Positions 1-53,148 of a DNA stretch of 64,000 bases are shown here, in pieces. Source of the DNA: Rhodosporidiobolus odoratus. Lineage: Eukaryota > Basidiomycota > Microbotryomycetes > Sporidiobolales > Sporidiobolaceae. The DNA lies in NCBI GenBank assembly GCA_034387635.1, contig JAOANU010000009.1, forward strand, positions 806,001-870,000. Direction: 5' to 3'. Position 1 is the first letter of the stretch. The number at the start of each line of letters is the position of its first letter. The translations under genes and the position numbers were made by a program. The notes beneath the pieces were generated by a model that saw only the letters and a list, made by a program, of their open reading frames with translations, was not told the origin of the DNA and did not search any database.

Positions 1-1369
1 CCTCGTCTCCGTGTGAATGGTCACCGGACGAATACTTGGGTTGAACGTGCATTTCCCGCAGGACAAGATCAGAATGGCCTCTCACAGAGCCTCAGCGCAT
101 CGGCAGGACTCCCACTCGGACAAGGATGATGATTCAGACATAGAAGATGCCCCAGGCAGTCCCGATGGTTCAGTGCGTGCGCCCCTGCCTGCCCATCAGG
201 CTGCGGTGGCTGACCTTTTCAACTTGGGAATCCTTCTTCTGTAGTACCCTGAGCGCAGCAGCCCTCCTTGTGGGTCGACCTACGCCACCATGCTGCCGTA
301 TACGGGGTTCGGACCCGAGGATCCTCGCACTGGCGCACGTGATGTTGATTCGGATATGGAAGATGCCGCAGGAAGTCCCGACGATTCGGTGCGTGCGCTC
401 CTACCTACCCATTAGGCCACGGTCATTGACCTTTGCAACCTCGAAACTATTTTTCTTCAGTACCCTGGGTCGCACAGATACCATCAACACTCAGCCTACG
501 CCCCCACGCTCCCGCATACGGGCTTTGGAGCCCAGGATTCTCGCACTGGCGCACATGATACTCCCCATGTTCAGCCAAATGCCGTCCCGGTGCGCCGTCT
601 TACTCTGCTTCCTCAGGCACAGCAAAGCCAAGAGCTCATCATCACTTGCAGCTCAACTATCCCCATGTGTCTGACTGGAGAAATGTGCCATTCCCGAGCT
701 ACGATGCGCAGAGTCTGCCGACTATCCCTCAAAACGAAGCCTCCGCTTTCTACCCGAACTACCCGACCCAGCATTTCGCTCCATCCTACATCTCTGACCT
801 TGCGGCCTATTCAGTTCCGCACGCAGCTGCCATTCCTGGCAACCGCCAATTCATGGTCAATCCCGGCAGCCCTCCTCCTCTGGCGAATCCTTATGCCCCC
901 AACTTTTCGGGCCAACAATTCCTACCCACACCTATTGTTCCAAATAACGCCCCATCTGTCTTCGTTCCACACCACCCCTCTTCCTTCATGCGCCGCAATC
1001 CCGCTCAGCCAGGAAGGACGCTCGACAGCAATTACGCCCCTCACGCCACGCAGGCTGAGTCTGATTTGGAAGGAGGCATGGAAGATGCGCTTGGCAGCCC
1101 CGATTCTGAAGTATGTGCTCATCTCCGTTGGGACCGGTTTCTAATGAGCTATAAGAGCCTGGGCTAATCTTTTACTGCTCTTCTAGTACCTACGCAACGT
1201 GGAGCACGCCGTGGCCCACCACTCCCACAACCCAAGGTCAGCCGACACTGCCGCGCTAAATCCTTTCCCCGAGCACTCCCTTCACAAGCGGCTAGTCGGG
1301 ATCTCCGAGAGGACGGCCCGGAGATACGGGACTACTAGGATGAGGTGGATGGCTGGAAGGGGTTGGTGA
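1..1369 (+). pseudogene. Lineage-specific RYGTTR/AGRGW family, copy 1 (5' truncated, frameshifted)
   Basis: The gene enters from the left edge. Exons I can place are 62-172, 245-388, 461-1110 and 1187-1369, each bounded by GTGCGT or GTATGT donors and pyrimidine-rich AG acceptors. The first two are whole numbers of codons. Exons 2 and 3 both begin with Tyr-Pro and share LP-x-TGFG-x-x-D-x-RTGA, so one is a tandem duplicate; the acidic motif SD(I/M)EDAxGSPD recurs at the ends of exons 1, 2 and (as MEDALGSPD) 3. The last exon ends ISERTARRYGTTRMRW then AGRGW and a stop. Exon 3 is 650 nt, two bases over a multiple of three. Against the copy at 13363-14091 it lacks 10 bp between two GCGCC repeats near 592-596; restoring that length gives 660 nt. 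The frame is therefore broken and I call it a pseudogene, unless unseen splicing rescues it. Function unknown. Confidence 0.65.
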
Positions 1370-1717
1370 GTGGATCCGGGTATGTACAGTGCGAAGAAAC
1401 CTGGATTGGGAAGGTCAAAAGGGGTATGTCGAGAGTGTGCTTGCCTTTAATCGGCTGTGCATAGTCAGCCGACAGTCACCGAGAGGGTGAAAGCATGAGC
1501 TGAGGCTGTTGCGTCCCCGAGTCCAGTTTGTTGCAAGCCTGGCAATCAGCGCGGTTTGGCTAGCTTCTCGAGAGTCGGCGTGGTGCATGCTCTCGAGCTC
1601 TGGCAATGTCCCAGATAACAGAATGATCATGACAACATGCACAGACAGACTCGCATGATCATACAGCTACGTCCGCTAGCACACTCATCCTGAACAGCAG
1701 CGAGCTGACCCCACCGC
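1370..1717. other. Intergenic, convergent 3' ends
   Basis: This 350-bp gap lies between the 3' end of the left-edge family copy and the 3' end of NNF1. Short open frames are present on both strands but none shows splice structure or a recognisable motif. I see nothing functional beyond probable 3' UTRs. Confidence 0.4.
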
Positions 1718-2723
1718 TCAGAGGTCCTGACCGACAACCTTGACGAGCTCATCTTGCAGCTGCTGGACAGCTCGTTCGTCAATGTCACTGAGCGCTTGGA
1801 CAGACTGTACATGCGAGGAAGTCGAAATCAGTAAAACTGGCGCGGCATAACGGAGGTGCCTATTAAGAGGGCAGAAGGAAACGGACCGCGGCAAACTGAG
1901 CCAAGATTGCTTCGTTCTGCTGCTCTTGACTGGCGGTCCGTTCGGCTAACGTAGCTATCCGCTTATAAGTAGCGGCATTTTGGGCTGCCAGCTGGGTCAG
2001 GAAAAGATGGTCAGTTCGCACTTACTGTTGACAGGAGGAAGACGTCGGCCCAACGCACTGCTACCCGTTTTGCTCGTATTTCTGCCATTGCCCCGCGTAG
2101 AGCTGGGACTGTTGCTGATGGAACGGTGACGGTACCGTCTGCGCCCAATCTGCAAGACAGGAGAGAACGAGATACGGCAAGAAAAGAGGAGAGAGGGAAA
2201 GTGAGGCTTGCGAACACAGCTATCTGGAAAGGCAGGCTGAGCCGTGCGCACCCGTATACCCCCCTGGGCTCCTCTCCTGCATCCTTCCGCGCTTGTGCCT
2301 CCGCAACGAGCTGATCCAGCTCGTTGGCTTTCTCGACGAAATTAGCGGACCGAGCCAAGTCGTCCCACGCGAGCTGGCGAGGTTGTGAGCCGCGTCAGCA
2401 CGGTCTCAGAACGCACAGTGAAAGCCGAGGAACGGACGGGGACGCCTGCCTTGTAGGTCGACACGACCATCTCCTGTAGCCCTGGAATCAGCTCAGGGTA
2501 CTCGTCTGCCCATTTTGCCGGGAAGCATTGCCTCATGGCTGTGTCACTGTGGGTAGTAGCGTCAGCTCGAGCTTTACACGCGTCCAGAACAGGGTCAGGG
2601 AACGTACTCGAGGACTTTGATGACCTTTCCTGAAGCTACGAGAAGGGCCTCGCGGGTCAGCTTAGCGCGTCGTCCGAGTTCCGGCTGAGGCGGTGGCTGT
2701 GGTGCTTGTTCCTCTGCTTGCAT
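1718..2723 (-). CDS. NNF1: Probable kinetochore protein Nnf1 (MIND/Mis12 complex)
   Basis: Nnf1 is a coiled-coil subunit of the Mis12/MIND complex that links the inner kinetochore to the Ndc80 complex. The protein is split over about five or six short exons. Readable blocks in order are LTREALLVASGKVIKVLEY; the family-like CFP segment MRQCFPAKWADEYPELIPGL; the Nnf1 hallmark FVEKANELDQLVAEAQARK; a helical stretch ending FLLST; and a C-terminal coil ending QQLQDELVKVVGQDL. The intron between the second and third blocks (GTGCGT to CCAG, 43 nt, with CTGAC) keeps frame. The junction after ARKDAGEEPRG is unclear, since the obvious GTATAC donor does not keep the expected frame. I chose the ATG at 2723 over an in-frame one at 2819 because the next gene starts divergently at 2868. 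The identification rests on the central block and overall helical design. Confidence 0.62.
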
Positions 2724-2867
2724 GTTGAGTTGGACGGGCAGTCTGAGGACGATGAGTGCACGCGTCTCGCTCGGCACGGCGGAGTGAGCGGCAAGTTGAT
2801 CGCGCTCTTCTCTCGTCAATACCCCTCAGATACGGCAGAGACTACGCGGTCATAATCAAGAACCAGT

Positions 2868-3522
2868 ATGCGATCACCCAACGGACCTTCCTCGTCTCAC
2901 CCTTCCAACCCATCCTCTCCAAATTGGCGACTTCTCCCCGACTTCCTCTCCTCCTCACCCAAATCCAAACACCGACGCCTGTCCAGCTCGACCGTCTCAA
3001 CCATATCAACCTTGCCTCCAGCTGCCCAGCATGGTCAACTCGTCTACGGACACCCGACTATTCCGCCCGGCGCGCTCCTCCTATCGTCCCCCTCCGTCAA
3101 CGTCGTCTCGCCCGCCGGACGCACCAATCAAACCACCTACATCGACAATCGTCCGCCGCGCAAGATTGGCATATTCGAAGCGTGGTGGATCTGGTACAAG
3201 GGCGGGTTTGTTAGCTCGATGCTCGAGACGGCGCGTCATTTTTCCTCCTTCCCCTTTTTAATTTCTTCGAGTTGACCCATCTTTCCATTCTTACTCGCAG
3301 TGGGAGTTCCTCCTGATCCGTACGTCGGGAAATTCACCGCACAATGCAGTCCCGGACGTGCTCATGCTTTTCTCTTCGCTTTTTTCTCTCGCAGATACCG
3401 TCTTCCTCTTCCTGCTCCTCCTCTTCTACTTCGCCCTCTCGCACGTCCCGGCTCACGCAGCACAAGTCGCCAACAGGGTCCGGTACTACGTTAGCGGCCC
3501 GGGAGAGTGGGGACGGTCTTGA
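2868..3522 (+). CDS. Serine palmitoyltransferase small-subunit-like membrane protein
   Basis: Three exons (2868-3230, 3301-3319, 3395-3522) give about 169 residues. The first 90 residues are Ser/Pro-rich. The C-terminal part has the layout of ssSPT/Tsc3 subunits: an aromatic entry helix (FEAWWIWYKGGF), then SSMLE-T-WEFLL where the family has LEPWE, then one strong membrane helix (VFLFLLLLFYFAL) followed by SHVPAH, like the family's PxH motif, and a short amphipathic tail. Such subunits activate the first enzyme of sphingolipid synthesis at the ER. The first intron only keeps frame if it starts with GC (ACG|GCGCGT); the nearest GT would shift the frame. The second intron is canonical GTACGT to CGCAG. 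Length and motif order support the call, but the family is short and divergent. Confidence 0.58.
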
Positions 3523-4035
3523 GGTAGCAGTCCCGGTTGCAGGAAGGCGAGCTGGACTCGCAGCCCCGAGGTTCGACGGTCCATGCCTTGTGATTTTGAT
3601 TGTGTGGGCTCAGCTTCTTGTGCGGCTGTTAGGACAGGGCGGTGATCGCGTTACTTTGTTTTGGATGTTGTCTTTCTCTCCTTCGTATTTCTCCATCGCC
3701 TCATGACCTAGACCTAGTATGTTTCCCCGTTCCCGTTTGAGCATTGTCATTCTACGGTACTACAGAATAGCTTCGCGCTTGTGCAGACCTACCTAGCGGC
3801 GCATGTAACACTAACAGCCGATTTTCTCCCATGATCCCGTTCGGCACACACAACGACTCCTGACATCGGCAAGCTCGCATGTGTTCTGTATAGAGACTCA
3901 GCATACAACTCTTCTCGCTGAGCAGCAGGCCATATATCTCTGCGAGTCTTACTCTTGCCTTTCCTTCCCCACTGCCTCCTCTCCGATTCTCCCTCTGACT
4001 CTCCCCCTTCACCTGGTCCACCTCGCTGAGCCGTC
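3523..4035. other. Intergenic
   Basis: About 510 bp between two genes on the plus strand. It should hold the 3' UTR of the ssSPT-like gene and the promoter of the next. A CT-rich block lies just upstream of the ATG at 4036. No further coding signal is visible. Confidence 0.4.
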
Positions 4036-4671
4036 ATGTCACCCACTCCATCGAAAAAGTCTCCGTCGACCTCGTCGCTTCCCAGGCCGCCCTCTCGGCG
4101 GTCCCACCCTCGTCCTTCTCCCGCGAAAATGCAACTCGCCCTGGCAGCCGCCGCTGAGGCAGCCGAAGACCGCACGAGTAGTCCGCCGTCTTCGCCCTCG
4201 TCTGCTCAGACTAGGCGAATGAGATCTCTGAAGCGAGGTAGACGAGCTCCGAGTCCGCCAGAAGAGGTGAGCGATGGGAGTCGAGAAGAGGGAAGGGAAG
4301 GAAGAACCTCGGACGCCGAAGCGAGAGGATCTCGGACGGAAAGAGATGAGAAGCGAGTACGATGGAAGTCGTCTTCGCCCGCGGCGTCGTCGGACAGGAC
4401 GAGCGACTCTTCAGTTGTGGCCCTTCCAGAAGGGCAAGGAGAAAAGGTGCGGCATCGTTTTGTCTTTTTCTGCCTGTAAGCGTACTAGTCGAGTCTGACT
4501 CTTCTGCTGGGCTGTCAGATCGCCTCGAAGACTGAGCCTTCAAAGTCTCACTGTCCCCACGATCCACCCGCACCGTCTCCGCTCGACGAAGTCGAAAGGA
4601 CACCGCCCGATGCCTCCTCTCAGCTTCTTTCGCAATACAGTGTTGGACGTCCGGCTGACCACTGCTTCTGA
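4036..4671 (+). CDS. Small disordered Ser/Arg-rich protein with a possible PP1-docking motif
   Basis: Two exons (4036-4446 and 4519-4671), joined in phase 0 by an intron with GTGCGG and TGTCAG, give about 187 residues. The sequence is rich in Ser, Pro, Arg and Glu with no predicted globular domain. Near residue 110 it reads DEKRVRWKSSSP, in which KRVRW fits the RVxF/W docking motif for protein phosphatase 1 followed by serines, as in many PP1 regulators. That is a short-motif inference only. I do not recognise the gene, and the second exon adds no domain. Confidence 0.45.
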
Positions 4672-4999
4672 AGATTCGGAAGACGAAGGGAGAGCGGGAC
4701 AGTAAGAAAAGGTAGACGTGTGGTGAACGAGAGAGGAGGAAGGGTCATCTGCGTGAGGGGAGGCCGACGTCTTCGCCGATTGCGATGTTATCGCCTAGTC
4801 ACTCGAGCTTACACCTGACCGCTTCTTCGTGGCTCTATCGCTGCCTCTCGCCCGACGGAAGCACAAAGAAAGACCGAAGTGTGACCTTCGCAAGTCTCGC
4901 CTACGAACGAAAAAGGGAAAACGAGGTAAAGATTGACAACGACAACGTACCACAAACCCATCAAGCCTACACGAGTCTCACATCTCGGCAATCACACCT
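4672..4999. other. Intergenic, convergent
   Basis: A 330-bp gap between the 3' end of the small disordered gene and the 3' end of the LENG1-like gene. It holds a long pyrimidine-rich run (about 5010-5160 just inside the neighbouring gene, beginning here). No coding feature seen. Confidence 0.35.
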
Positions 5000-6548
5000 C
5001 TACCTTCGCCTGCCTTCATCCCTCCTTCCCCCTCTGTACCCTCCGTACCCTCTGTCCCTCTCTCTGTCCTCCCTCCCCTTCTTCAACGCCGCCCACCCTC
5101 CTCGCCCGTCTGTGCCCCCGCCTTCAATCCTCTCTCTCCCTCTCTCCTCCCACCCTCTCCCCTGACCATTACCCTCCCTAGCCTCCTTAGCCGCCCTGAC
5201 CTCATCGCGATTATACATCCCCCAACCCCCTGTCTCGCTCCTTGCGGGTGTACTCGCGACAATCGATGACGAGGCAGACGAGCTGAGCGCAGCTTTTTTG
5301 CGTGCGGCGATGAGAGCAGCTGCGCGAGCTCGTTCAGAAGACACGCGGGAAGCGGCTTCGGCTTTCGGGTCTCGTCGAGGGTGAGTTGCTGTGGATGACG
5401 AGAATAGAGAGGAGGAAGAAGAGGAGACTGAGCGTCGAGGTGGAGAAGGAGGTGGGATGGGGTCGCCCTTCCGCCGGGGTGGGGGGAGGAGTTTTGGCTC
5501 GATTGGCGCGTACGGGTCTTTTGCTCCTCTGCTCGTGCGCGGGGTGTCCGAGGAGGAGTAGGCAGAAGTGGAGGAGGGCGTGATATAGCGGTCCCGGGAG
5601 GAGGGTTGACGAGCTGTAGGTAGGGACGAGCCTGAGAGGACGGCGGAACGGCGGGTAAGGTATTGGTTCATGAGGGCGAGGGGATCGGTCAGGCGCTTCA
5701 GGGCGGTATCTTTGTAGCTACAAGCGGGTGAAACCGATGGACCAAGGTTAGAGATGGACCGGGAGCGGCAAGGGGGCGCCGACAAGACGGATAGGCAGAC
5801 AAGTCAGACTTACGTTCGCTCCAACCGCTCTTCGTCCCCTTCCCGCCTTTCCTTCTCGCTCAAGCCTTCCCGATCTGCGTACCAGCCTTTTGGCTCGCCC
5901 TCGCCCCGCTTCGCCATGAAAACCTTCGTAGCGCTGTCTTCGAGTTCTTTCTCGCGTTCGGCTTTGAGGCGAGCGGCCACGGCCGAGGTGTTCAGTGGCG
6001 CGGCGGTGCCCTGTGCCCAAGTTCAGACTAGATTGGTCAGCTCGAGGGAAGGGGCTGATGCGGTAGACGTAGGAGAAATAGGTGACGAGGAAAACACGAC
6101 GCACCGCTTCCAGCTCAGCCCAAAAGTTGAGATGTCCATTGGTCATGATATCTCCCTCTCCTTCCTTTTCCTTGCCCTTGCCTTTGCCCTGGCTTATCAG
6201 GTCGCAGCCTTCGGGCCATACCACCTCTGCCCTTACCATGTCTTTTTCCTTTTCCCTTGCCCTGTCTCGCTCATTTCCCTTGTCCGTCTGCCTCCCTCGA
6301 TCGTCCCTCCTCTTCCCCTTGAGCTGCTTGTCCATCTCCCTCTCCGCCAGGTCGTCAGCGTCGTCGCGAGTCCGTTTCCTAGCCTTGCTCCTCATCCTAT
6401 CGACCCTGGCTTCAGCCTCTGCTTTGTTGACGCGTTCCTCATCGCCTTCTGCTTTGGCTGCTGCGATTGCTTCATCTCGCTTAACACGCTCTATGTTGGT
6501 GGCGGAGTAGACGTGCCAACTCTTGTGGTGGAGAAGTTTGATAGGCAT
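5000..6548 (-). CDS. LENG1: LENG1-like protein with CIR N-terminal domain (spliceosome-associated type)
   Basis: Three exons: about 6548-6104, 6018-5815 and 5715-5000. The N-terminus reads KSWHVYSATNIERVKRDE, the Cir_N signature found in LENG1 and CWC25-type proteins, followed by a charged helix and a Lys/Arg/Glu-rich region. Exon 2 encodes VAARLKAERERELED and KGWYADREGLSEKE; exon 3 has LKRLTDPLALMNQYL, matching the LENG1 middle region, and near the C-terminus SSERARAAALIAARKKA and YNRDEVRAAKEA, matching the LENG1 tail. Family members are associated with spliceosomes and are nuclear. The start ATG is the first and lies directly before the KSWHV domain. It is divergent from the RS-rich gene at 6783 with a shared spacer of about 235 bp. 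Confidence 0.65.
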
Positions 6549-8653: not shown

Positions 8654-10042
8654 CTACCACCCTCTTCCCGCTTCCCACATGCGTCTCGTAGTGCCGTATC
8701 TCTGTGCCGTCCGTTCCGATATTCGGCGATGCGTCCGAGCCAGGGAGTTCGGAAAGAAAGCTTCGTCAAAAAAGCCGGTTTGCTGCTGCTCCTCATTGGG
8801 GGACCTCGGATGTGAACCGGAGCGGGCGCGTGGACATGGCTGCAAGGATTATTGCGAGACGAGAGAAAGGACGCCATCAGTGGGAGGTCAGGCTTGACAT
8901 GCGCCTGATGGTAGGGCTGGCTGACGCACCTCTTGGCGAAATTGACGAGGCGACTCCACCTCACTACGGCCTTCAGCAGTAGACTGCCGTGTCTCGCCAG
9001 GTACAGAACTGCCTTGAGCTGGAATAGCTGCCTGTTACAGCAGTGATGTAGAATTAGTCCCCGCACTGAAGGGCCCTGCAGAAAATACATGAGATTCACA
9101 ATCTTTCCCACCACATCTTCTGCCGATAGCTGTAATGCAGCAACAACATATTCAGCTAGGGCGAACACAGCTTCGTACTGGAGACAGATGCGTACATGTG
9201 GTTCCTCCGCCTTGAAACGCTGAAGCTCCGGCTTTAGTATGTCGAACCAAGCCGTCAACCGGCCTTGCGGGCTTAGTCTTTCCCACTCGGGCTGTAAGGA
9301 TTTGCGCAAGGCCACCAGCCACGGCTCCTTACCCTTGAGGTACGTACTCCTGACTGTGTGCCAGCTAGGTCCTACATTGCGACTCTTCTTGTGGTATATT
9401 GTTCCGCTCATTCGCTTCTGGATCAGGCGCTGTTGTGTGTCAACTAAGTCAGTATAGTAGGACCTCAGGGTATAGCAACTGCACTGCCCTGGACGCACTT
9501 TACGAGTCAAAGTAGGCTGCAGGGGTGTAACGTATCAGCACAGTGAGAATTGTCAACTGCAACTTGAAAGGTGGAGACTGACAGTAAGTCGCCCGGCGGT
9601 CTCTTCAGCCTTGAACTCTGCCTGTGGTGTAGAAACATCAGTCTAGCTCCCTTCGTGTGGCACAAGCACATCCTTACGATTTGATCGAAGAATTGGGATT
9701 CGATGTTGTTCAGCGTCGCGGCGTCCTGCACCAGGGGGTGTCAGCTCGCCGTGACATCGGTAGGCCGGAAGACCTCACCTGCCCTTGTCCTTGTACATCC
9801 TTGAGTACACTTGTCAGTGCCATATAAATATGCCCTTGCACATTTGGCGATGCCGCATCCCACTCTGGCTTCAAAGTCGATACGAATTCCTTACGCCATT
9901 CCTCGAGGTCGGGGTAGGTGTGAGCGGTATCGTTCCATATCAGTCCGCGAACAGTACTCCACGCGCGAGTTCGCGGCTCAGGGGACTCCTGAACCGGAGG
10001 AAGTGGAGTGTATTGATGGAGACTCGGATCTTGGGGGTCCAT
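8654..10042 (-). CDS. Lineage-specific RYGTTR/AGRGW family, copy 2
   Basis: A multi-exon gene with short exons separated by roughly 50-70 nt introns. The probable start is the ATG at 10042 (MDPQDPSLHQYTPLPP). Exon 1 carries LEEWRKEFVSTLKPEWD and ends VQGQGQ before a GTGAGG donor. Small exons follow (LNNIESQFFDQIV; AEFKAEETAGRL). A central exon has the block shared with copy 3: KGKEPWLVALRKSL, then EWERLSPQGRLTAW and FKAEEPHVR, followed by a hydrophobic helical stretch (YEAVFALAEYVVAALQL). The last exon ends RISERTAQRYGTTRRMW then EAGRGW and a stop at 8654. Several internal junctions are unresolved. No known domain is recognised; the helical, charged make-up suggests a soluble protein. This copy shows no obvious disabling mutation. 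Confidence 0.5.
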
Positions 10043-13362: not shown

Positions 13363-15124
13363 TTACCAACCCCTCCCGGCCATCCACCTCTCCCTCGTAG
13401 TCCCGTACCTCCGCGCTGCCCTCTCCGAAATCTCGCCATGCGGTTTGGCCAGGGATTGCTCCGGGGGGTAAGGGTAGGAATTGGAATCGTAGGGTTGCTG
13501 CGCCGGTGGGTTCGGACGCAGCCACGCGGGCTGCTCAGCGGGCTTGCGAGGCATGAAGGAAGAGCGGTGGTGCGGAACGAAGACAGACGGGGCGTTACTT
13601 GGAACAATAGGTGTGGGTAGGAATTGTTGGCCCGAAAAGTTGGGGGCATAAGGATTCGCCAGAGGAGGAGGGCGGCCGGGATTGACCATGAACTGAGTGT
13701 TGCTAGGAGTGGTAGCTGTGTGCGGAACTGGATAGGCCGCAAGGTCAGAGATGTAGGATGGACCGAGATGCCGGGGCGGGTAGTTCGGGTAGAAAGCGGA
13801 GGCTTCGTTTTGAGGGATAGTCGGCACACTCTGCGCATAGTAGCTCGGAAATGGCACATTCCTCCAGTCAGGCACATGGGAATAGTTGAGCTGCAAGTGA
13901 TGATGAGCTTTTGGCTTTGCTGTGCCTGAGGAAGCAAAGTAAGACGGCGCAAACTGGCGCACCGGAATGACATCTGGCTGAACATGGGGAGTATCATGTG
14001 CGCCAGTGCGAGAATCCTGGGCTCCAAAGCCCGTATGCGGGAGCGTGGGGGCGTAGGCTGAGTGTTGATGGTATCTGTGCGACCCAGGGTACTGAAGAAA
14101 AATAGTTTCGAGGTTGCAAAGGTCAATGACCGTGGCCTAATGGGTAGGTAGGAGCGCACGCACCGAATCGTCGGGATTTCCTGCGGCATCTTCCATATCC
14201 GAATCAACATCTCCATGGTCGGAGTACTGCTCATGCGCCGATTCTTCGAGAGAGGCCATTCGGATTTTGTCCTGCGAGATATCGAAGTTCAAGATCAGTG
14301 TTCGTTCAGTGAACCCTAGTCGAAGACACGGGCTTCCGTACAACGTCTGCGGCGATTTGTTCCGGAGACAGCTGCGAATGGACCATGATTAGCAACCAGA
14401 TAGTGCTTCACCTCGAGAGAGACAACGCACACATGATTCCTTCTTCTTGAAGTGGGCTAGCTGAGGCTTGACCACTGTGTCCCATGCAGATACACGCGCA
14501 TCGACGCTCATCCTGCTCCAGTAGGGAACTAATGCCCGGCGTAAGGCCACCAGCCACGGATCTTTTCCCGCCAGGCTGCGGGAAACTGTGCGCCATTTGC
14601 GAGTGCTGGGCCCTCTCGGTTGTACTTGCACGCTTGCGGGCTGAAACGTGATGTCAGCGAAGTAGACATTTTAGTCGAAAACTCACACACCTCTTGTGTT
14701 GGCCCCGACGTTCTCAGACCTGCCGCACCTGCGCAGAAGTTGGCCTGAAAAAGAAGACGTCAATGTAGCTATTCATGCGGGCAAAACAAGGAGGGGCCCT
14801 CGGCGACCGACAATCTTTGCATCAATGCTCTCGAGCGAGTCCTGTGTAGCCAATGAGGTGAGTTGGTTTCAGCAAGCATGGGATCTCGGGCACACCATCT
14901 GCTGTCTCGCCTCCGCTTTCCTCCTCTCTTGCTTAGCTATCTGAACCATATATTTCCTGAGGGGCACGGGCGCCCTCGACCACCTCTGCACGAAGTGTTT
15001 CTGTATGTTTCTGTATGTTTCTGATATGTGCTTGAACTTCTTCTGGTGTATCCTTGCGTCCGCCCCACCAGAGTGCACCCCGTAAGGTGCTGTCAGTGGG
15101 GCCTTCGCGACGTACTTTAGGCAT
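13363..15124 (-). CDS. Lineage-specific RYGTTR/AGRGW family, copy 3 (closest to copy 1)
   Basis: The final exon (14091-13363) is exactly 243 codons including the stop. It is Pro/Ser/Tyr/Asn-rich (AYAPTLPHTGFGAQDSRTGA; FPSYYAQSVPTIPQNEASAF) and ends ISERAARRYGTTRERW then MAGRGW. The preceding exon has the acidic motif VDSDMEDAAGNPDD. Further upstream is the family helical block WRTVSRSLAGKDPWLVALRR, then YWSRMSVDARVSAWD and KPQLAHFKKKE. The copy is 75-85% similar by eye to copy 1 over about 1 kb but has only one acidic exon unit and no intron before the signature. The 5' end is unresolved: two overlapping frames are both open between about 14870 and 15410 (one with HLYKECLKYVAKAP and YRNIQKHFVQRW, one with TPEEVQAHIRNIQKHTETL), so the start at 15124 is provisional. 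Function unknown. Confidence 0.5.
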
Positions 15125-25472: not shown

Positions 25473-27765
25473 CTACCACCCCTCTCCAGCCGCCCATCTC
25501 TCCCTCGTAGTCCCATAAATGTGAGCAGCCCGCCGACCGATACTGTGATAGTCTCGTCTTGCCCGTCCCGTGTTCGCGAAAGCGTCAAACTCCAGTCGAT
25601 GCTCCAGAGGAACGTAGTTGCGATGGGTCTCGTCGGGTACTGCAGCACGTGGAGATGGCGACGAACTGCCAGAGGCTGAAGAGCTGGCGTGATACACGAA
25701 GGGCAGGCTCGAAGGCGAGTAAGAGACGAGACCTGAGGGACTGCCGCGCCTAGGATGCGGCGTCAACGAACGGGAATCCCTGTATACAAAGAGCGTGAGC
25801 GAACAGCGTGCCAGGTAGACTTGGAAATTCTTACCTATTGCTGCCGTACTCGTCTCCGTCTTCATCGCTAGATTTCTCGTGTCCGTCTTCATCGCTGTAC
25901 GCATCGCTGCTTTCGCCGTCGTCCCCGTCAATGGACGCAGTGTGGCTGCGCGATGCAACAGGCGATACTCTTGATGAAGGAGACTCCGGCAGCTGCTTCA
26001 TAAGAGCAGCCAGAACGGAAATTGAGTCAGTGGCCAGTGAGACGGTTCCGAGCGGACCGAGTGCTTACGAGATTCCGCGGATGGTATTCATAGCGAAGCG
26101 TTGAAGGCGAATGGGAGACGAGACCTGAAGGACACCCGCGCCTGGGACGAGGCGTCGACGGACGGGGAACCCTGGTTACGAAGAGCGTGAGTGCAACACG
26201 GTGCCAAGTAGACTTGGAAATTCTTACCTGTCGCTGCCGTACTCGTCTCCGTCTTCATCGCTAGATTTCTCGTGTCCGTCTTCATCGCTGTACGCATCGC
26301 TGCTTTCGCCGTCGTCCCCGTCAATGGACGCAGTGTGGCTGCGCGATGCAACAGGCGATACTCTTGATGAAGGAGACTTCGGCAGCTGCTTCATAAGCGC
26401 AGCCAGAACGGAAATTGAGTCAGTGGCCAGTGAGACGGTTCCGAGCGGACCGAGTGCTTACGAGATTCCCCGGATGGTATTCATAGCGAAGCGTTGAAGG
26501 CGAATGGGAGACGAGACCTGAAGGACACCCGCGCCTGGGACGAGGCGTCGACGGACGGGGAACCCTGGTTACGAAGAGCGTGAGTGCAACACGGTGCCAA
26601 GTAGACTTGGAAATTCTTACCTGTCGCTGCCGTACTCGTCTCCGTCTTCATCGCTAGATTTCTCGTATCCGTCTTTACCGCTGCACGCGTCGCTGCTTTC
26701 GCGGTCGTCCTCGTTACTGGACGCTGTGTGGCTGCGCGATGCAACAGGCGATACTCTGGGTGAAGGAGACTTCGGCAGCTGCTCGACAAGAGCAGCCTGA
26801 ACGGAAATGGAGTCAGTGGCCAGTGAGACGGTTCCGAGCGGACCGAGTGCTTACGAGATCCTTCAGAACTTCGGAGCTCGTGCGCTGCATTGAGATGCCG
26901 ATAAAGTCAGTGCCATCGTCCGACAAAACCTCAGTGAGGTATGTACGCACGTGCGGCTCGGCTTGCTCTGCCTTCAAGATTCGGTAGGCCCGTGTCTGAA
27001 GTCGCGCATCTGCCCTAAGCTTTTCCCAATACTTCACCATTTCCTTTTTCGTACGTCTATTCCAATTGAGATTTTCCGCCAAGCAGGCCCTCGCACTCTG
27101 TTCACTCCGGACCACATTTTTCTGCAGAGAGACGGTCAGTACACGGTTATTGTAGTAACACGGCTATGGCCTACCAGTTCTACTGGCTTACGCAACTTGG
27201 GTTCGTAGATCGGCTGAATGAAGACGATGTCAGCGCATGAAGAATGGCACAAGAATGGCACAGACACTTGGTCTCAGCGTACAAACGGTTCCCCCTCCGC
27301 ATCCTTTGTCTGCATATCTCGCTGTGGATTTCAGAGTCAGTCAGAAGAATCTGCCGGCAACTCAGAAGCAACAGCGATCCAAGGAACTTGAAGGCCGTAC
27401 ACATTTTTCGACGATCTGGTTTGGTAACGCCTGTGCATCGGGCCGAGGTCAGTGGGCATGTTGATCAAAGGGGTGAGAAGGCACCATACAGTTTGTTGTC
27501 CCATTCTCAATAGCTTAGCCTGGTCCTGCGCGAGTTTGAAAATCCCGAGTTGGACCCTCGGCCTCTGATCATTTTTCTTCCACTCCTCCCACAACGCCGA
27601 ACCCAGCTGCCTCGCCGAGGTTTTGGCGGAGTCTGTCCGGCCGGCGGCGTCGCGTGCTCTGTTCAACAAGGCTCGGACCGACACGAACGACGGATGCGAG
27701 GCTTGTTTTCGTCGCGACAGTTGCGAACGTTTGCGCGGTACCGAAGGCACGGAGGGTGCCGACAT
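25473..27765 (-). CDS. Lineage-specific RYGTTR/AGRGW family, copy 4, with triplicated exon pair
   Basis: The start ATG at 27765 opens a helical exon (FVSVRALLNRARDAAG; SALWEEWKKNDQRPRVQL; ending RMGQQT before a GTATGG donor), comparable in position to copy 2 exon 1. Another exon has the family block YWEKLRADARLQTRAYRIL and EPHVR. The middle is three tandem copies of a 392-393 bp unit. Each unit holds an acidic exon (GDDGESSDAYSDEDGHEKSS, then DEDGDEYGS before GTAAGA) and a Pro/Arg/Ser exon (PRPRRGCPSGLVSHSPS) ending before GTAAGC. The last exon ends GRRAAHIYGTTRERW then AAGEGW and a stop at 25473. Both exons stay open in every unit, which argues that the gene is functional. Product unknown; the acidic repeats suggest an interaction region. 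Confidence 0.55.
25709..26886. repeat. Three tandem 392-393 bp repeats within family copy 4
   Basis: The sequence starting at 26101 recurs at 26494 almost unchanged, and a more diverged copy starts near 25709. The period of 393 is a multiple of three and each unit contains two exons plus two introns with matching splice sites. Units 2 and 3 are the closest pair in their first halves; unit 3 has several substitutions in its acidic exon. Confidence 0.92.
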
Positions 27766-33233: not shown

Positions 33234-33270
<37 letters not shown>

Positions 33271-39359: not shown

Positions 39360-39399
<40 letters not shown>

Positions 39400-42300
39400 G
39401 GGGGAGAGAAAGCGGAGGAAACGGCGTTAGTATCTTTGTCTTTATCACGGCGAGGCCTGCATTCCTCTCACTGGACCAGAGGATGAGGTGGCAAACCGTG
39501 AGCTGCCCCGGCAAAGACCGCGAACAGAGAAGAAAGGAGAAAAAGACGACAACACGAACCGCTGCAAAAAATCCCAATGCTCTCCAAACTTGCCTCCCAA
39601 CCTCTCCCACCCACCTCCCCCTGCTGCTCCTGCCGCTCCCATCCCGGCTTGCGCTTCAGTCGTGACGACGATCCGGGTGAACGACGAGGTGTAGTTGGCA
39701 AAGACGTAGCACGTGTTGAAGAGTTTTTGGTGAAAGAGCTAGAGTCGGTCGTGTTGGGTGGAGGATGAGGGTGAGTTGTGGACGAAGGATATCGCGCGCG
39801 AGAGATGGAGGAGAAGGGAGAAGACGAGGGGAGCGGAGAAATGGGCAGAGGAAAGAAGAAAACGTCGAGGAAAGGGCAAGTCAGGCCCACGACACCTCAG
39901 AGGGCTAAGAAGGAAGAAAAACGGAAAACGCACCTCGAGCAACTTCTCATTCGTCAACAAACACTCATTCGTACACGTGTTCAAAAAATCCTCATGATCC
40001 CTCAACAACTGATCCACCGTCCCGACCGTTTCCATCTTCTTCCTCAACTCTTTCCACCTAATCTCGAGCACCTCACTGACGGCGAAATCAAACATCTGTT
40101 GAATGAAATCGTACATCCTCGCTCGGAGGGCAAAGACTCGACCTTTCCAGGCTTGCAGTTCGGGAAAGGGAGATCGACGCCGCCAGCAAGGGGTTTTCAG
40201 GTGTTCGGTCCAGGTCTCCTGGAAGACTCGTTCGAGGTGTTTGAGGCGGAGGAGGTGGCGGAAGATCATTTGGTAGTAGGTTATCGATTTGCGCGAGAGG
40301 ATGAGCGAGAGGGGGAACGAGACCGAGTAGTCGAGGTTGAAAACGTCCCAGCCTGGAAAAGCCGAGTGTCAGCACGAGATGCTACAGTTGGAATGGCAGC
40401 ATTGAGAGTCGTCACGTACCCATTTGTTCATCAGCCTTCTTGGCATCCTTCGCCGCAGAACTCCCACTCACCTTCCTCTCCTGCTCCATCATAGGCATAC
40501 CATCCGGTCCCATCCCCGTCTGGTTGACGACCTTCAACAACCACTCCGCAACCGTAACCTCCTCAAATACAATCTTGAGGTCGTCCTTGTACGGGTCATC
40601 GTCAGCTCGTGAAGATGGGTTGCGAAGGGCGAGGTCGAGTTGAGTCTGCAGACGCTCGATCATGATGCGTTTCTTCTTCTTGCCGAGTTCGAGCTTGGCC
40701 ATGTCGAGGAAGTGAGTGAAGACGTCGCCGTGGTTGATAAAGAAGTGTTGCTTGATGGATCTGGGCGGGTGAAAAAATCCGATAGGGTCAATTCGTGCGC
40801 GGGCAGCCAGAGAGACGGGTATGTGCAACCGCAGTGCAGAATACGAGGGTTACGGCAGGACCGGGTATGGAAGAAGGTAAGATGTGGTAAGAGACGCACT
40901 CTAGTCGCGGGACGAGATGTTCCTCCTCGAGCAACAACTTCAACAGCGTCTTGTTCGCATAAGTATAGGCAACATCGATGCGCTTGTAGAAGCTGCAGTT
41001 GTCAGGCCGACATGTACTATCAGCATCTTCGCCCATGCACTCTGCGAGTCGAGGGAAGACGACCGAAAGAGCCGAAGCTGAGCGACGCACCTCTCCTCGT
41101 TCATCGCCAACAATTCCCCCCTTGCAACCCTATTTCCCTCGGGCACCTCAATCTCAATCCCACATTCCCGAATAACATTCAGATACTTGCCCGCAAGGAG
41201 GATCTTGTCCTTCCAAGGTTCGAGAAAAGCGGGCACGACCGCCCCGCCTGCGAAACCTCTCGACCTCGGTCCATCCTCACTCGATCTCAGCGGCGCTTTC
41301 CCCATCCCCATCCCTAGCCCAGAGGCAGCCGTCGCAACCGACCCGAGAGGACGATCTCGAAGCGTGTACCGTCGCTCCCAGTAATCATCCGTATAATCCA
41401 GATCCAACGAGTTCTGATTGATCCCCTTCGTTTCCCGCACGATAAACTCGTCCCAAGGATCGGCGAGATGACCCGTTGAGATCCATCCGAGCAGAATGAC
41501 GACATAAGGTTGAGAGGCTTTGAGGAGTAAATGCTCGTAAAGCGCTTTGGCCGAGGGATCGCCCGAGGTCCGCTCGAGCTTGTCAAAGAGGACGTAGAGG
41601 ACTTCGCCGCCTTTTGCGGGACCGGCGCGCCAACCTGCGGAAGAGTCGGCAGGGCGAGCCGCAGCGGAGGCGGCCTTCATTTCTGCGAGGATGTTGGCCA
41701 TACCTTCTCCGCCTTCGTACTCGTCTTCGAAAGAGGACTCTTCGGATGAGGTTTCGTCAGAGACGGATGGCAGGCAGAGTGCGACGAGGTCGGTTGTGAG
41801 GGCATGAATGAGAGAGAGGGTGTTGAGCGCGGGATGGACGAGGAGCCAGAATCGTTGCAGGGTGAAGGAGGAAGACGAGGTGAATTGCTCCTCGAGCTGA
41901 GCGAGGAGAACGAGGTAATCCTGTCACGACCCATAGGTGAGTGAGCCGTCAAGGTATATTATTCGGAACAGGGGATAGGAACTTGCGCGCAGCATTTCGC
42001 GTATCGCGGCGCAGAGAGCGTGATTGATAACGCCATGTTCGAGGATGGAGTACTGTTCGACGAAGGCAGTGACGGCTGTATAGTAGGTAGCGAGAGGGAG
42101 GAAGCGTGTGACGACCGATGCGATCCATGGGTCTGCACGTGGAAAATAGTGAGCAGGACGTTTCTGGCATGACGATGGAAACGGGCGCACCCAGCCCATG
42201 CTCAACGACGAATTGCGCTCCTTGCAGTCGCTCAAAGTCGTCTTCTGGCGTGTATGCAGAGTCGAACTCGATATACCGTCCTTCGATGCCCTGCAAGCAC

Positions 42301-43476: not shown

Positions 43477-46789
<3,313 letters not shown>

Positions 46790-47283: not shown

Positions 47284-47713
47284 ATGGCCTCCAACCAGAA
47301 CGAACAGAACAGCGAAGAGCAGCAGTTCTCCATTCAGCCTCACCCAGCCAAAGACAACTACGACCCGAGCCAGTTTGTTGAGCCCACACCCGGTGAGTTT
47401 CGCCGTTCCACCATCGTTTCTCTTTCCTCCTCCGTCTTCCTGGGTTTCCCCACGGCCTCGTTCACCTCATACTCTTCTCCCCGCATTCTCGAGACTGCTC
47501 TCGGTCCATCTCTTGTGCGTCCCGTGCATCACTGACCGCCATTCTCGTGCAGGCCTCGGATCAGCCCCTACCCTCCAAGGCGGCAAAGAGGCTTCGGCCT
47601 ACGGTGGTCGTGGCGGCGCGCCCCACGTCATCTCGTCCGAGGTAGCAGAGGGTCTCGAACCTCCTAAGAGCCGCGAGGAGCTGCAGGCACTCTCGGCTAA
47701 GCTCAACGAGTAA
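47284..47713 (+). CDS. Small conserved-looking protein, 89 residues
   Basis: Exons 47284-47392 and 47553-47713 join in phase 1 across a 160-nt intron (GTGAGT to GTGCAG). The product starts MASNQNEQNSEEQQFSIQPH and ends EPPKSREELQALSAKLNE, with a Gly-rich middle (GGKEASAYGGRGGAP). It is acidic, soluble and has no membrane helix or signal peptide. The even codon quality and clean intron support a real gene. I do not recognise the family. Confidence 0.65.
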
Positions 47714-48041
47714 AGATGTCAGACGGAAAAGCGTTTTCTCTCCCGTCCCCCGTGATTTCGATTGCTCCTTCGTCTGCTTTATTGTACATGGTTGTTGTCC
47801 CTTAATTGTGTAATGTGTGACTTCGAACCGTTCTTCACGAGCGAGAAAAAGCAAGACACGGAAAGCAGGCCGCGGTCATCTTGCTCATGGTTCCTTCAAC
47901 ACTTCAGCCAACCTTGTCTCTATCGCATCTAACGCCCATTCCGCTCATCTACAGAGCCTTACTTATCCTATTTTCGGCATCTGTCCCATCGACCACGCGT
48001 CCTACGGCTCCGTTCGCCCTTATCTCGCTGGTTCCCCCCAC
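47714..48041. other. Intergenic
   Basis: About 330 bp with the 3' UTR of the small gene and the promoter of the S1/P1 nuclease. No other feature seen. Confidence 0.4.
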
Positions 48042-49556
48042 ATGCGCCTCCTCGCCTTGCTCCCGCTTCTCACCCTACCGAAGGTCTTGGGATGGGGTGC
48101 AGCAGGTGCGTAGATTCGGTCCTTTTCAGTCTGTAACCCTCGCTCATCTCGCTCTGTGGCAGGACACGAGATGGTGGCTACAATCGCCGAAATCCATCTA
48201 CACCCGACTGTCCTCGCCTACATCCGCACTGCGCCACTCCTCCCCCCTTACGCAAAGGGACATCTCGCCTACATCGCTAGCTGGGCTGACAAGATCAGGA
48301 TGGTGCCCGAGTATCGAGGTTGGAGTGGCCCGCTTCATTACACCAGCTGGGAGGGGGATCATCCCCCTGAGACGTGCGCTTGGGGCAAAGGTGAACAGCT
48401 CGGAGAAGGGGGCTGGCACTCGGACAAGGACGTTCTCCACGCCATCGCGAACTATACCACTCGTTTGGAGCGGAACCCGGAAGAGTGTGTTTTTCTCTTC
48501 ACTATGGTGTCAGCGTTCTTTCGACTGATCCAAACCCCTCTGTCTTCGCGACTCCCTCCCTCCCACGCGCGATGCTCTGTTCTGTGCGGCGATCGACTCA
48601 TCACCTTCCTTCACATGCTTTTTAGCTGGCCCTCCTTCAACTTCCTCGTCCACTTCCTGGGCGACGTGCACCAGCCCATGCACCTCACCTCTCGCGAGCG
48701 GGGCGGCAACGGCGATCCTGTCAGCTGGGATGGTCGGCACACAAACTTGCACTCGCTATGGGACGGCTTGTTGATTGCAAGGACGTTGAGGGAGCAGACC
48801 AACTACACTTCGCCACTGCCCTCGTGCGTTCATGCTGTTTCTTTCTTGCTCAACCTAGTCTCAACGGTCACCTTACAAGTCGGATCTGGGTGTGCTTACA
48901 GGAGCCAAATCGAGTCCGCACTCATCGGCCGAATCTATGATCCCTACATCCGGCTCCTCCTCTGGGAGGGCGTCCGGTCCTGGTATCGCTCCTCCCTCTC
49001 CACCTGGCTCTCCTGTGACGCCTCCGCCTCTCTCTCCGCCTCAGCCTCAGCCTCGCCCGATCAGGTCACCTTCACTTCTGCCGTTGGCAGCGAGAAACGC
49101 ATCGAAGATGTGGTTTGCCCTGTGAGATGGGCTACTGAGACGCACAAGGTTACTTGCGAGTTTGCGTTCCCTGAGGGGTATGATATGCATGCTCAGCCTC
49201 CGCAGGAGATTGGGGGCAACAGCCAGTTCTGGAAAGATTTGAAGGGTGAGTTTGCAGCTTTCTCGCTTGATGTCCTGTTCCATCCATCGTCAACGTCGGG
49301 CAGGACACTGTCTTCCACAACCTCAGCAGCCCAGCAGCTCTGACTGACGCTTAATTTTCTACCTGCCATTTCATGCAGCGGATCACTCCCTTGCCCGCCT
49401 CCTCCTCCAAGCCGGCCTCCGACTCGCCGCTACCCTCAACACCGTCTTTGCTGAGCCCGCCCATGCTCTCGCGGAGGAACGAGGCTGGATCGCCCTGCTT
49501 GAGAACAAGGAAGAGGGGCCGGTCAACCTGGAATGGTTGAACGCGGCCGAGAGGTA
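48042..49556 (+). CDS. Secreted S1/P1-type zinc-dependent nuclease
   Basis: Single-strand-specific nuclease with three zinc ions, secreted or vacuolar, for nucleic acid scavenging. Exon 1 (48042-48105) encodes a signal peptide (LLALLPLLTLPKVLG) and then W-GAAG, so that the mature N-terminal Trp ligand is retained. Exon 2 continues HEMVATIAEIHL, IASWADKIRM and PLHYTSW. Later exons have FNFLVHFLGDVHQPMH, GRHTNLHSLWDGLLI, a Ser/Ala-rich insert, RWATETHKVTCEFAFP, and a final exon ending VNLEWLNAAER. The Trp, His and Asp ligands of the family are visible in order. The Ser/Ala repeat near 49020-49060 is a low-complexity insertion. Five exons. Confidence 0.93.
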
Positions 49557-50279
49557 AAGTTCTAGGCAGATGGGGATCTGTCTAAGCGTCTGAGTGCGTT
49601 GTAGTCTTTTCTTATCTGCTGCCTGGTCTTGTTATGCGGACACTGCCTATTGTTTGCTCGAGCCCAGGTTGAGAAGGTCATATCAAGCGAGGTCGGCCCG
49701 TCTCTCCTCAGGCGACGACGTAGCGGCGACGTGTCGACAGCTTGACGGGAAGACGTACTGTACCCGCTGACATGAATTGCTCACGAATCCTGACCCGTTT
49801 GGCAACGAGTTCCTCTAAGCCATTCCGTTTCTTCCTCCTCCCCGCCACCTCTATCCTTTTCTCGCGCTTACGCCTCACGACCCCGCGGCCTCCAATTGAT
49901 ACCACCCCTCCACGCCGACTCCCGTCGTCCGCTGACCGTCCAATATCCCGCAACGTTCCATCAGTCCACCCCAGTCTGCCTCGCTTCGGTCTTTTTCTCG
50001 CTCTCCTGAGTCCGTGGAGCCGCTTTGACCGGATGCTTCGGTCAATCTTCAGTCTCGAGGAGTCCAACCCAAGCCTCGAAGAAAACCTCCGAGATGCAGG
50101 AGGGCAACGGACATTGTAAGGGCGACAGACCTCGGGGAGTGTGACCGGGTAGAGGAGACTCGAGGCGAAGGAGCGATGGATGCCCTTCGTGCCGTTTTCT
50201 GCTCCCTTTCTTCTTCATACCACGCTTCATACTCCTTGGGGCGGCCGTGTTTCCGTCCGCACGCCTTTCCTCGCCCAGC
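49557..50279. other. Intergenic, about 720 bp
   Basis: Between the nuclease and the thaumatin-like gene. A minus-strand open frame (about 50067-49708) is strongly basic and lacks an ATG at its 5' end; a plus-strand frame overlaps it. Neither has a recognisable motif. I treat the stretch as promoter and UTR sequence. Confidence 0.35.
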
Positions 50280-51723
50280 ATGCACACCTCTTTCATCTTC
50301 ACCGCTGTCGTTTCTTTTGCACTCGCTGCTAGATCGGTCGAAGCGACTAGGAAGTTTACCATCAAGAACGACGTGAGCTCCTTCTTCCTCTCTCTCTCTT
50401 CCAGTCACGTGGCTGCTCACCGCGCTCACCGCTTGTATGACCACAGTGCAAAGAGACCATCTGGCCGGTACGCTTTGGTTTTTCTTTTTCCTCTCTCCCG
50501 CTCACCTCTTTCGGTATAGCCTGTCCCTCCTTCAGCGACTGATTCGGCTTTCGTCGATCTGGACAGGCGATCTTCACATCAGCCGGGACGTCTCCTTCCC
50601 ACTCGACCGGTTGAGTGGCGAAGAAAGGATCGAAAACTTCCTTCGAGGTCGATGCGTTCGGACTCTCTTCTCCTTCGTCCCACTGCTCGGATCTGACCGG
50701 TCCCACTCATCTCACACAGCCGAAGACTGGAACGGCCGTATCTGTGCGTCGATTCTCCTACTCCATTTTTCGCGGCCATTGCTAATTTTCTTCTTTGACC
50801 TCATCGAAGGGAAACGACTTGGCTGTGATTTCTCCGACAAGACAAAGTCGACCCTGCCTTCCTCCTGCGCTAGAGGTGGCTACAACGGTGGACTTGAGTG
50901 CGCCAAGTAAGCCTACTCTGCTTCTCACCCTCTGCATCTCAGCCGACTCGAGCCTGATCAGTCATTTTCTCTTGCGCTCTCAGGGCTGGAGGGTCCGGTG
51001 TCGCCCAGGCCTCGCTGGCGGAGTGGAACTTGAACGCGGGTCAAGATTGGTACGATGTCTCCCGGGTCGACGGGTTCAACACTCCCATGACGAGTGAGCT
51101 CGTTTTGTTTTCTCCTTCGCTCTCTGCCTTTGGACTAAAGCCGGGGCGCTGACGAGGGATTGTCTCATAGTCACGAATAACGTCGGCTGCAAAGAGCCCT
51201 TTTGCCCTACCGATATCAGCAAGGATTGTCCCGCTGCTCGTTTGTCTTTCTCCTCTCCTTTACTCACAACCTCATTGATAGCCCGGTGCTTGCGCCCCCA
51301 GTATCCGTGAGCAACTCAAACGGCGACGTAGTAGGTTGCCTTACCTCATGCGGCGCTAACCTCGACGGCAACCAGGCCGACAGTGGGAACTGCTGCTCTG
51401 GTTTGCGTGACACGCCCGAGACTTGCCCCAAGAATAAGATCGAATAATATGACACTTTCGAGACGGCTTGCCCAGATGCTTATGCCTATGCTTGTACGCG
51501 GTTACTTTCCTTTCTTTGGAGCAGCGCAAAGGCGAGAGAAGGCTCACCGTGAACCGGGTTTTTTCCCCGCCAGAGCAGACGACGATTCTGCCGGTTCCGC
51601 CCTCTGGACTTGCACTCAATCCAAGGGAGCTGACTACACTCTCACTTTCTGTAAGCACTCCCTATATACAGACGCGCTGAAGCCCCGACGCGGTTGACTC
51701 GTTTTCCTCTCGCAGGCCCTTGA
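50280..51723 (+). pseudogene. Thaumatin-like secreted protein gene with two in-frame stop codons
   Basis: The start MHTSFIFTAVVSFALAARS is a signal peptide, followed by the thaumatin-family features in order over about nine exons: KFTIKND, CKETIWPAIFTSAGTSPSHS, DWNGRIW, LGCDFSDK, CARGGYNGGLEC, AEWNLNAGQDWYDVSRVDGF, GCLTSCGANLDG, TCPKNKIE, TACPDAYAYAYDD, SALWTC and a last exon ending TFCP-stop. Most introns keep frame. However, codon 50612-50614 is TGA where the family has the Trp of a TGW motif, and codon 51445-51447 is TAA where the family has the first Tyr of YY. Skipping the first by splicing would delete a core strand. The donor after KDCP is also non-standard. I therefore call a recent pseudogene; readthrough or unusual splicing are the alternatives. 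Confidence 0.68.
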
Positions 51724-51883
51724 ACAATGACTAGCAAATCACAGTAGGGCACGGACAGTTCGCAGCAGACGGATGTGCAATACTCAATTCCTTGACAAAC
51801 AAGATTGATACTATTGCCATACCGAAAGTGAGCCCTAATTCTCGACAGTTGACCTTCCCAAAACCACTTTTCCCTACGCTTTC

Positions 51884-53148
51884 TCACCACCCTCTTCCCG
51901 CCTTCCACCTTTGCGACGGAGTCCCATACCTCCTCGCTGTTCGAGCGCTGCTCCGAGCCAGAGAATGCATCGTATGTCCCGTATGTCTCGGACAAGGGGG
52001 ATCAGTCCCGACATGACACTGACCGGGGGGGCTGAACACCATCGGAGCCGGCACGAAAGAAGACTGGGGCACGTATATCGGTTGTTGCTGTTATTGTTGT
52101 GGCGGGTCTGGATTATAGTCGTGCACAAACTCCGGGTAGAAGGGATCCAAGTTTTCAGGTACTCGGGAGGAGTCAAAGTCGTCCCCCCCAAGGTTGTGGA
52201 ATCACGTCGATGAAAGAAGGATTGGGAGCGGGATAGGACGGAGGATGCGACTGGGAGTGGTAAGGGTTCGTGCTGATCGGCGGTGAATGCGGAGGTAACG
52301 GGAGAGAATCGGCTGGTGCCTCAGGTTCTACCTTTGGTGGCAATGCGCAATCCGGTGAGCTCGAGTTCACAATCGTCGAGTGCGCAAGACCGACCTCGGG
52401 TATCAAGCGAGAGAGATTCTGCACAGGGTGTAGAGTATGTAACGTCAACGGAGACAACGAAAAGAAAATGAAGCGAGAAGGAAAGGCTAACCATTTGTGT
52501 GAGGATTTCGCTGATGGGAAGCTTTACGAAAGACGATGAACAGTGAACTGAGCGGTAGTACACGGGTGGAGCAGCTCGAGAGGTTCTGAGAAACCTGTGA
52601 CCTACCGGAATCTCGCTCATCCGCCTCGTCCTCCACCACCCAGATCACACGCAACGCCTCCATTGGGTTCAACGGATCCCATACGGCGAATAGCAGCACA
52701 CGAAGTCGGTACACGGTTTGTGTTTGGTCAAGCTTGTCCAGGCGGGCGTTCAGATTCGCGCTTGTACGCTGAGGTTGGGATTGCGTCGGCATGACGAGGT
52801 CGGGGAGCTTGTGTTTCTTGATCTAGCGGTACAACAATGTAGCATAAGAGGTAGGGACTTGGGTACAAAGGAGGCGGTCAGACTGACGACCCGTGAAGTA
52901 CCGCAAGCCAGTGTCCAGTGTCGTACGGGCGGGACGAGTCGAGGATGTAGACTGTCGATGACAGGCCGGAGGAGGGCATGCGACTTTGAAGTGGGACGCC
53001 GGAGTATAGTGCTCAATTCGTGGTCGTCTGTGAGAGGGGTGGAGTACAGTATGAGCCAGATTAGACAGCCAGAAGTGAGCGGGAGGAGAAGGGGAACAGA
53101 GAAGTCGGGATCTGCTTCAACCCGATGAAGTGAATTAATTTCGGACAT
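51884..53148 (-). pseudogene. Lineage-specific RYGTTR/AGRGW family, copy 5, apparently disrupted
   Basis: The start ATG at 53148 opens MSEINSLHRVEADPDF. A following exon, after a GTCGTC to CCGCTAG intron, reads IKKHKLPDLVMPTQSQ, then the helical LDKLDQTQTVYRLRVLLF and MEALRVIWVVEDEADE. A Pro/Ser-rich exon (EAPADSLPLPPHSPP) runs to IDVIPQPWG. There a G7 run (52183-52189 as C on plus) shifts the frame relative to the downstream acidic segment DDFDSSRVPENLDPFYPEF, and that segment meets a TAA (52092-52094) inside a Gln run. The same frame then continues to the family end ARTARRYGTPSQRW then KAGRGW and stop. The signature is weaker (GTPSQ for GTTRx). I infer a decayed copy, though an unseen intron could remove both lesions. 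Confidence 0.45.

Follow-up and report, generated by a model that had tools for sequence, protein, structure and literature searches.

A family of genes with a shared C-terminal tail

The window, i.e. the whole stretch of 64,000 nucleotides that was analysed (C9:806001-870000 of a 24.8-Mb genome of 45 contigs), contains five genes whose predicted proteins finish with nearly the same residues, hereafter called the tail. An earlier note on this DNA had placed these endings at 1369, 8654, 13363, 25473 and 51884, and at each of these positions the signature closes the gene in frame, as read from the reading frame:

ends 1369, plus strand: gene 1 tail SERTARRYGTTRMRWMAGRGW, then stop TGA
ends 8654, minus strand: gene 2 tail SERTAQRYGTTRRMWEAGRGW, then stop TAG
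ends 13363, minus strand: gene 3 tail SERAARRYGTTRERWMAGRGW, then stop TAA
ends 25473, minus strand: gene 4 tail GRRAAHIYGTTRERWAAGEGW, then stop TAG
ends 51884, minus strand: gene 5 tail SARTARRYGTPSQRWKAGRGW, then stop TGA

All three stop codons occur among the five genes. A search of the 24.8-Mb genome with the tail of gene 3 recovered the other four window copies at E values of 1e-9, 2.5e-8, 1e-4 and 1.9e-4, so that their likeness is not attributable to chance. The signature, proposed earlier to be invariant, is not so, gene 5 having GTPSQRW and gene 4 both IYGTT and AGEGW. The interleaving of the five genes with ordinary genes was confirmed, ARG5,6, an S1/P1 nuclease and an ABC transporter being found nearby.

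The 38-residue tail used as query matched 29 places in the same genome, and three more queries from other subtypes matched 31, 20 and 23, the four together giving 51 distinct places; these counts are lower bounds. After inspection of the frames 48 of the 51 were analysed, and all family figures refer to these 48. The places dropped were C1:144258 (stop codon within the match), C17:775357 (run-on tail) and C2:751588 (motif absent). A second look at C1:144258 revealed a normal tail beyond the internal stop, so at least 49 of the 51 places appear to be members; the figures were nevertheless kept at 48. The weak places C6:111610 (E 5.25) and C9:674104 (E 0.076, odd end) were retained, and C1:1800979 (E 0.008) was left outside the counts. 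The 48 members are spread over 15 contigs, C9 carrying 11 and C17 10 of them. Tandem arrays occur, one of them with four genes on C20, and 24 members have a neighbouring member within 10 kb, compared with a mean of 1.8 and a maximum of 10 in 2000 random draws. There were 25 members no more than 135 kb away from a contig end, where 16.4 were expected and 2000 random draws gave at most 27, and a bias toward contig ends is suggestive at best. The likeness between C20 (L030/L031) and C2 (L040) spans several kilobases around the tail genes, beyond the genes themselves.

The other parts of the five genes are listed below. Splice sites of all models were deduced from the sequence.

339..1009, plus strand: gene 1, tract of about 670 bp in common with gene 3 (inverted, 13533-14213), by nucleotide alignment
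1187..1369, plus strand: gene 1, likely last exon including the tail (acceptor TAG at 1184-1186, frame open to TGA)
9779..10042, minus strand: gene 2, exon 1, helical module A (ATG to donor GTGAGG; module assigned by eye)
9196..9429, minus strand: gene 2, exon 2, helical module B (donor GTACGC; profile match)
9100..9129, minus strand: gene 2, exon 3, 30-nt micro-exon LSAEDVVGKI (gene model)
8654..8746, minus strand: gene 2, C-terminal tail and stop TAG (start of the last exon left provisional)
14431..14640, minus strand: gene 3, exon 2, helical module B (gene model; profile match)
14342..14371, minus strand: gene 3, 30-nt micro-exon LSPEQIAADV (gene model)
14164..14271, minus strand: gene 3, short acidic exon (gene model)
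13363..14091, minus strand: gene 3, last exon with Pro/Ser/Tyr-rich linker and tail, stop TAA (gene model)
26951..27121, minus strand: gene 4, exon 2, helical module B (weak likeness to the gene 2 module, E 0.002; boundaries by reading the sequence)
26855..26884, minus strand: gene 4, 30-nt micro-exon RTSSEVLKDL (boundaries by reading the sequence)
25711..26859, minus strand: gene 4, three tandem 393-bp units, each with an acidic Ser/Asp/Glu-rich exon (repeat comparison)
25473..25565, minus strand: gene 4, C-terminal tail and stop TAG (reading frame)
52492..52521, minus strand: gene 5, 30-nt micro-exon LPISEILTQM (boundaries by reading the sequence)
51884..51976, minus strand: gene 5, C-terminal tail, GTPSQRW variant, stop TGA (reading frame)

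The upstream exons of gene 1 partly precede the start of the window, and its front lies outside it. The start given for exon 2 of gene 2 is one of two in-frame acceptors. The middles of the genes, said earlier to be largely different and disordered, are not only disordered, a helical module being recognisable in genes 2 (two), 3 and 4 and the 30-nt micro-exon in genes 2, 3, 4 and 5; gene 5 has no recognisable helical module. Gene 5 and a gene on C31 have a conserved stretch in common, some 1.6 to 2.7 kb upstream of their tails (53508-53834, minus strand, and L041 5941-6249, minus strand), which may be an exon or a neighbouring gene. Long homopolymers were also seen in the window, 34 G at 33236-33269 and 43 G at 39362-39404, the latter a 95 % match.

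Coding status and constraint of the tail

The tail frame is considered real because three stop codons are used (TAG in 26, TGA in 15 and TAA in 7 of the 48 tails), because identity differs between codon positions and because four annotated proteins of Rhodosporidiobolus odoratus carry the tail. Over 16 codons around the motif, in 47 of the 48 sequences, pairwise identity was 0.604 at first, 0.660 at second and 0.364 at third codon positions. Another frame of the tail is also alike between copies; it was rejected, since in the reported frame the differences fall on third codon positions.

Counted from the glycine of GTT, or of its variant, 47 of 48 tails have 10-15 residues left before the stop (13 in 26 of them), and an aromatic residue stands four places past GTT, also in 47. 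The last residue is W in only 29 of 48, so the terminal Trp and stop are not fixed, contrary to what the five window genes had suggested; an aromatic residue is found within the last three in 43. Endings other than Trp include SFR, AFK, AFQ, RSL, AY and WE. With regard to a degron that would depend on the free C-terminus, the terminal residue is R in five tails and G or A in none of the 48.

In three C20/C2 pairs the nonsynonymous divergence (dN) was 0.026-0.054 in the last 34 codons and 0.22-0.62 in the rest of the exon. In a C9 pair, dN was 0.06 and the synonymous divergence (dS) 0.375 over the last 30 codons, with 0.41 and 1.6, respectively, for the whole piece. The gene 1/gene 3 pair was excluded from this comparison for frame slips. 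The idea of selection on a free C-terminus thus held in part: the C-terminus appears constrained, since protein changes in the tail are far below those in the linker and the distance to the stop is nearly constant, whereas a free terminal Trp is unlikely to be the recognised group family-wide, Trp-stop not being fixed. As read from the sequence, the conserved unit is a segment of about 25 residues placed last in the protein, which was predicted with low confidence to form two helices.

Divergent front ends and exchange between paralogs

Searching a protein database, which includes other Rhodosporidiobolus species, with the last exon of a family gene on C10 gave four matches among five candidates, all from R. 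odoratus. These proteins (P0121-P0124) have 228-235 residues, are annotated as "hypothetical protein" and show the same order of parts, with the tail at the end. The C10 gene itself gives a complete model of 228 residues, with four exons, phase-0 introns, one of them GC-AG, and the order two helical modules, short helix exon, linker-plus-tail exon. With lengths of 228-235 amino acids in the five complete sequences, the family proteins are small and probably intracellular; neither a secretion signal nor transmembrane segments were evident when the sequences were read by eye. A module profile (W...I...I...W...A..IL) matched 23 open stretches in 20 larger DNA pieces in five rounds; module A of gene 2 is not one of the 23 and rests on a weaker likeness. 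Recognised modules per gene range from none (gene 5) to three (a C7 gene and one C17 gene), and in a C20 copy the micro-exon-like stretch continues from the module with no intron between. A spliced model of the C17:757 kb gene contained stops and was discarded, leaving its exon boundaries provisional. Structure prediction gave a helical bundle over most of exons 2 and 3 (residues 91-170) with block values of 75-94 for the predicted local distance difference test (pLDDT), and comparison of the helical modules with PDB structures returned generic helical bundles only.

The ARG5,6 open frame in the window is 99 % identical to an R. odoratus protein and at most 92 % identical to the other proteins listed, which places the window in R. 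odoratus or a very near relative of this red yeast, a basidiomycete as the earlier note had assumed. In the C10 gene the tail exon is only 94 % identical to its R. odoratus counterpart, which suggests that the genome of the window and the annotated proteins come from different strains or sister species. Two orthologous pairs between them have exons 1 and 2 at 91-99 % identity, while among the four R. odoratus paralogs the identity of these two exons is 19-59 %. For P0123 and the gene at C17:773-774 kb, exons 1, 2 and 3 are 99, 91 and 91 % identical; for P0124 and the gene at C17:778-780 kb, exons 1-4 are 89, 90, 71 and 91 % identical, exons 1 and 2 reaching 93 and 94 % with other exon ranges.

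The last exon of P0123 matches the C17:778 kb gene at 94 % but its C17:773 kb ortholog at only 77 %, over 31 residues, and it is identical (52/52) to that of P0124, which is listed on another contig. P0121 and P0122, which have consecutive locus tags, share the last exon (52/52), with exons 3 and 4 fully identical, whereas their exons 1 and 2 are only 59 and 55 % identical. Exon 1 of the C10 gene is closer to P0121 (76 %) than to P0122 (61 %), and its exon 2 is closer to P0122 (97 %) than to P0121 (55 %); by these identities the C10 gene is a mosaic of the two. In the window, the tract common to genes 1 and 3 (some 650-670 bp) is identical at 618 of 650 positions (about 95 %; 83-100 % in 60-column blocks), while aligned blocks outside it are at 40-77 %, with one short block at the edge (15/19) as an exception. 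Before the tract, gene 1 has a long stretch that does not align, and the tail lies outside the tract. Gene conversion or unequal exchange would be the simplest reading of all four cases (P0123, P0121/P0122, C10 and genes 1/3), and it seems that paralogs replace one another's sequence in part. The family would be a compact yeast example of exon-bounded gene conversion.

Past a small gap the linker of gene 1 loses its frame register with gene 3, and gene 1 may for this reason be a damaged copy. It also contains a 65-bp repeat, at 279-343 and 495-559, 216 bp apart. A degraded copy at C17:775-776 kb (L034 5258-6338) carries stop codons within a stretch resembling exon 2, and its tail runs on; the copy is alike over its full length to the gene at C17:817-818 kb.

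A putative adaptor family and its alternatives

The family as a whole could not be assigned to anything known. With 29 tails searched against Pfam at E values up to 10, only DNA_methylase and WSN were matched, by one member each and not above chance. The best match of 22 module pieces was DUF3782 (one piece, E 0.0024), the others being scattered single matches above 0.05, and all matches of P0121-P0124 and the partial gene 2 model were below the curated cut-offs. Neither a known domain nor a transposon-encoded protein, both considered in the earlier note as sources of the signature, was recognised among the Pfam matches. In profile searches of PDB sequences the tail was matched in an eight-residue run only, and other such matches, for tail, modules and full proteins, had E values of 0.02 and worse. 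A protein search with a C31 tail gave two candidates, none confirmed, and in prokaryote genomes 35 stretches fitted a pattern, with none confirmed. No relatives were found outside this genome and R. odoratus, although candidates had to contain exact five-residue words and fall in a length range, so that absence is not proven. No description of the family was found in searches of open papers. The suggestion of a large lineage-specific family with an ending known from no other is thus in line with the results, and about 50 places in a yeast genome of 24.8 Mb are taken by a family that has no Pfam or solved-structure-sequence counterpart.

Private front ends combined with a common tail are the pattern expected of an adaptor family, and our tentative reading, given a probability of about 0.4, is that the proteins are adaptors with paralog-specific front modules and one shared docking tail. 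The front modules would bind partners specific to each paralog, and the tail, which might be a small unit of two helices anchored by an aromatic residue, would dock every member onto one common cellular component, following the logic of F-box or SOCS-box families, in which many specificities serve one shared machine. Such a split between fronts and tail predicts one common partner. A more specific form is doubtful, in which the family would be a fungal intracellular recognition repertoire, each paralog having its own targets and a new C-terminal docking box of 25 residues linking it to one effector machine, while exon-bounded conversion re-equips divergent fronts with the box and reshuffles modules.

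Several observations weigh against the adaptor reading. No known adaptor box was matched in Pfam, and the BC-box pattern, [APST]L...C...[AILV], occurs in none of the 48 tails (last 30 residues each). Not every front end is kept, as seen from exon 3 of P0124, just 71 % identical to its ortholog, and from the mosaic C10 gene; the degraded C17:775-776 kb copy and the possibly damaged gene 1 also count against this reading. In the predicted structure the tail helices (204-214 and 217-225) have block pLDDT of only 44-47, and exon 1 is mostly at 41-60. In the three C20/C2 pairs dS was likewise lower in the tail (0.18-0.40) than in the rest of the exon (0.51-1.04), so conversion, besides selection, may keep the tails alike, and the conservation figures are partly built in because the members were found by their tails.

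The basic character of the tail (mean net charge +3.9, range 0 to +7, over the last 30 residues of the 48 tails) would also suit nucleic-acid binding regulators, in which the tail is a degenerate helix-turn-helix (HTH) on DNA or RNA and the modules dimerise or bind cofactors. Its R.A..YGTT...W pattern appears to resemble HTH spacing, and the low-confidence two-helix prediction would fit such a reading. However, no HTH family was matched in Pfam by 29 tails at E values up to 10, the five proteins scanned have no significant DNA-binding domain, and the residue past the Gly is mostly Thr, while known HTHs have a hydrophobic residue there; this role is regarded as rather unlikely. The clustering and tandem arrays, the exon exchange between paralogs, the fast-changing linkers and an occurrence seen, at the sensitivity used, only in this genome and R. 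odoratus would fit a part in genetic conflict (allorecognition, recognition of viruses or transposons, or meiotic drive), with diversification by duplication and conversion. The 91-99 % identity of exons 1 and 2 in two orthologs is nevertheless above what an arms race leads one to expect, and dN/dS, computed for four pairs within the genome, stayed under 1 in each; such a role is regarded as unlikely. Finally, duplicated orphan genes or mobile-element remnants with little cellular role, kept alike by conversion, could account for the degraded C17 copy and for the gene 1 linker lying out of register with gene 3. The codon-position signal, the conservation between orthologs and the phase-0 introns of the models speak against such a by-product, and no transposase, integrase or reverse transcriptase was among the Pfam matches at E values up to 10, terminal repeats of elements not having been sought; we consider this very unlikely.

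Among known systems, the eight-residue run (ArrYGTT plus one) is shared with the LysM domain, through PDB entries 4uz2 and 4xcm, which we take to be LysM proteins, at about 10 bits or less per stretch (4uz2 with E 0.0018 for two copies). It differs in that the run alone matches, with no domain of flanking strands, no Pfam LysM match in 29 tails or P0121-P0124 and no evident secretion signal. HTH domains such as HTH_psq have the A..YG......W spacing in common with the tail, for which two helices were predicted with low confidence, but they match the family in no Pfam search, the tail lacks the first helix of a full HTH, and its segment ends the protein. Families of the wtf type and of fungal allorecognition may be likened to the present one by description, though no transmembrane segments are evident here by eye; they too are clustered, lineage-specific and shaped by gene conversion, a pattern already known elsewhere, which limits the novelty of the present family in this respect. 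From adaptors of the F-box, SOCS-box and KRAB type the family is set apart by the missing BC-box and by the lack of any such Pfam match, F-box included, when P0121-P0124 and the partial gene 2 model were scanned at E values up to 10. By analogy it resembles them in its many fast-evolving paralogs, its variable putative binding modules and its one short shared candidate docking motif.

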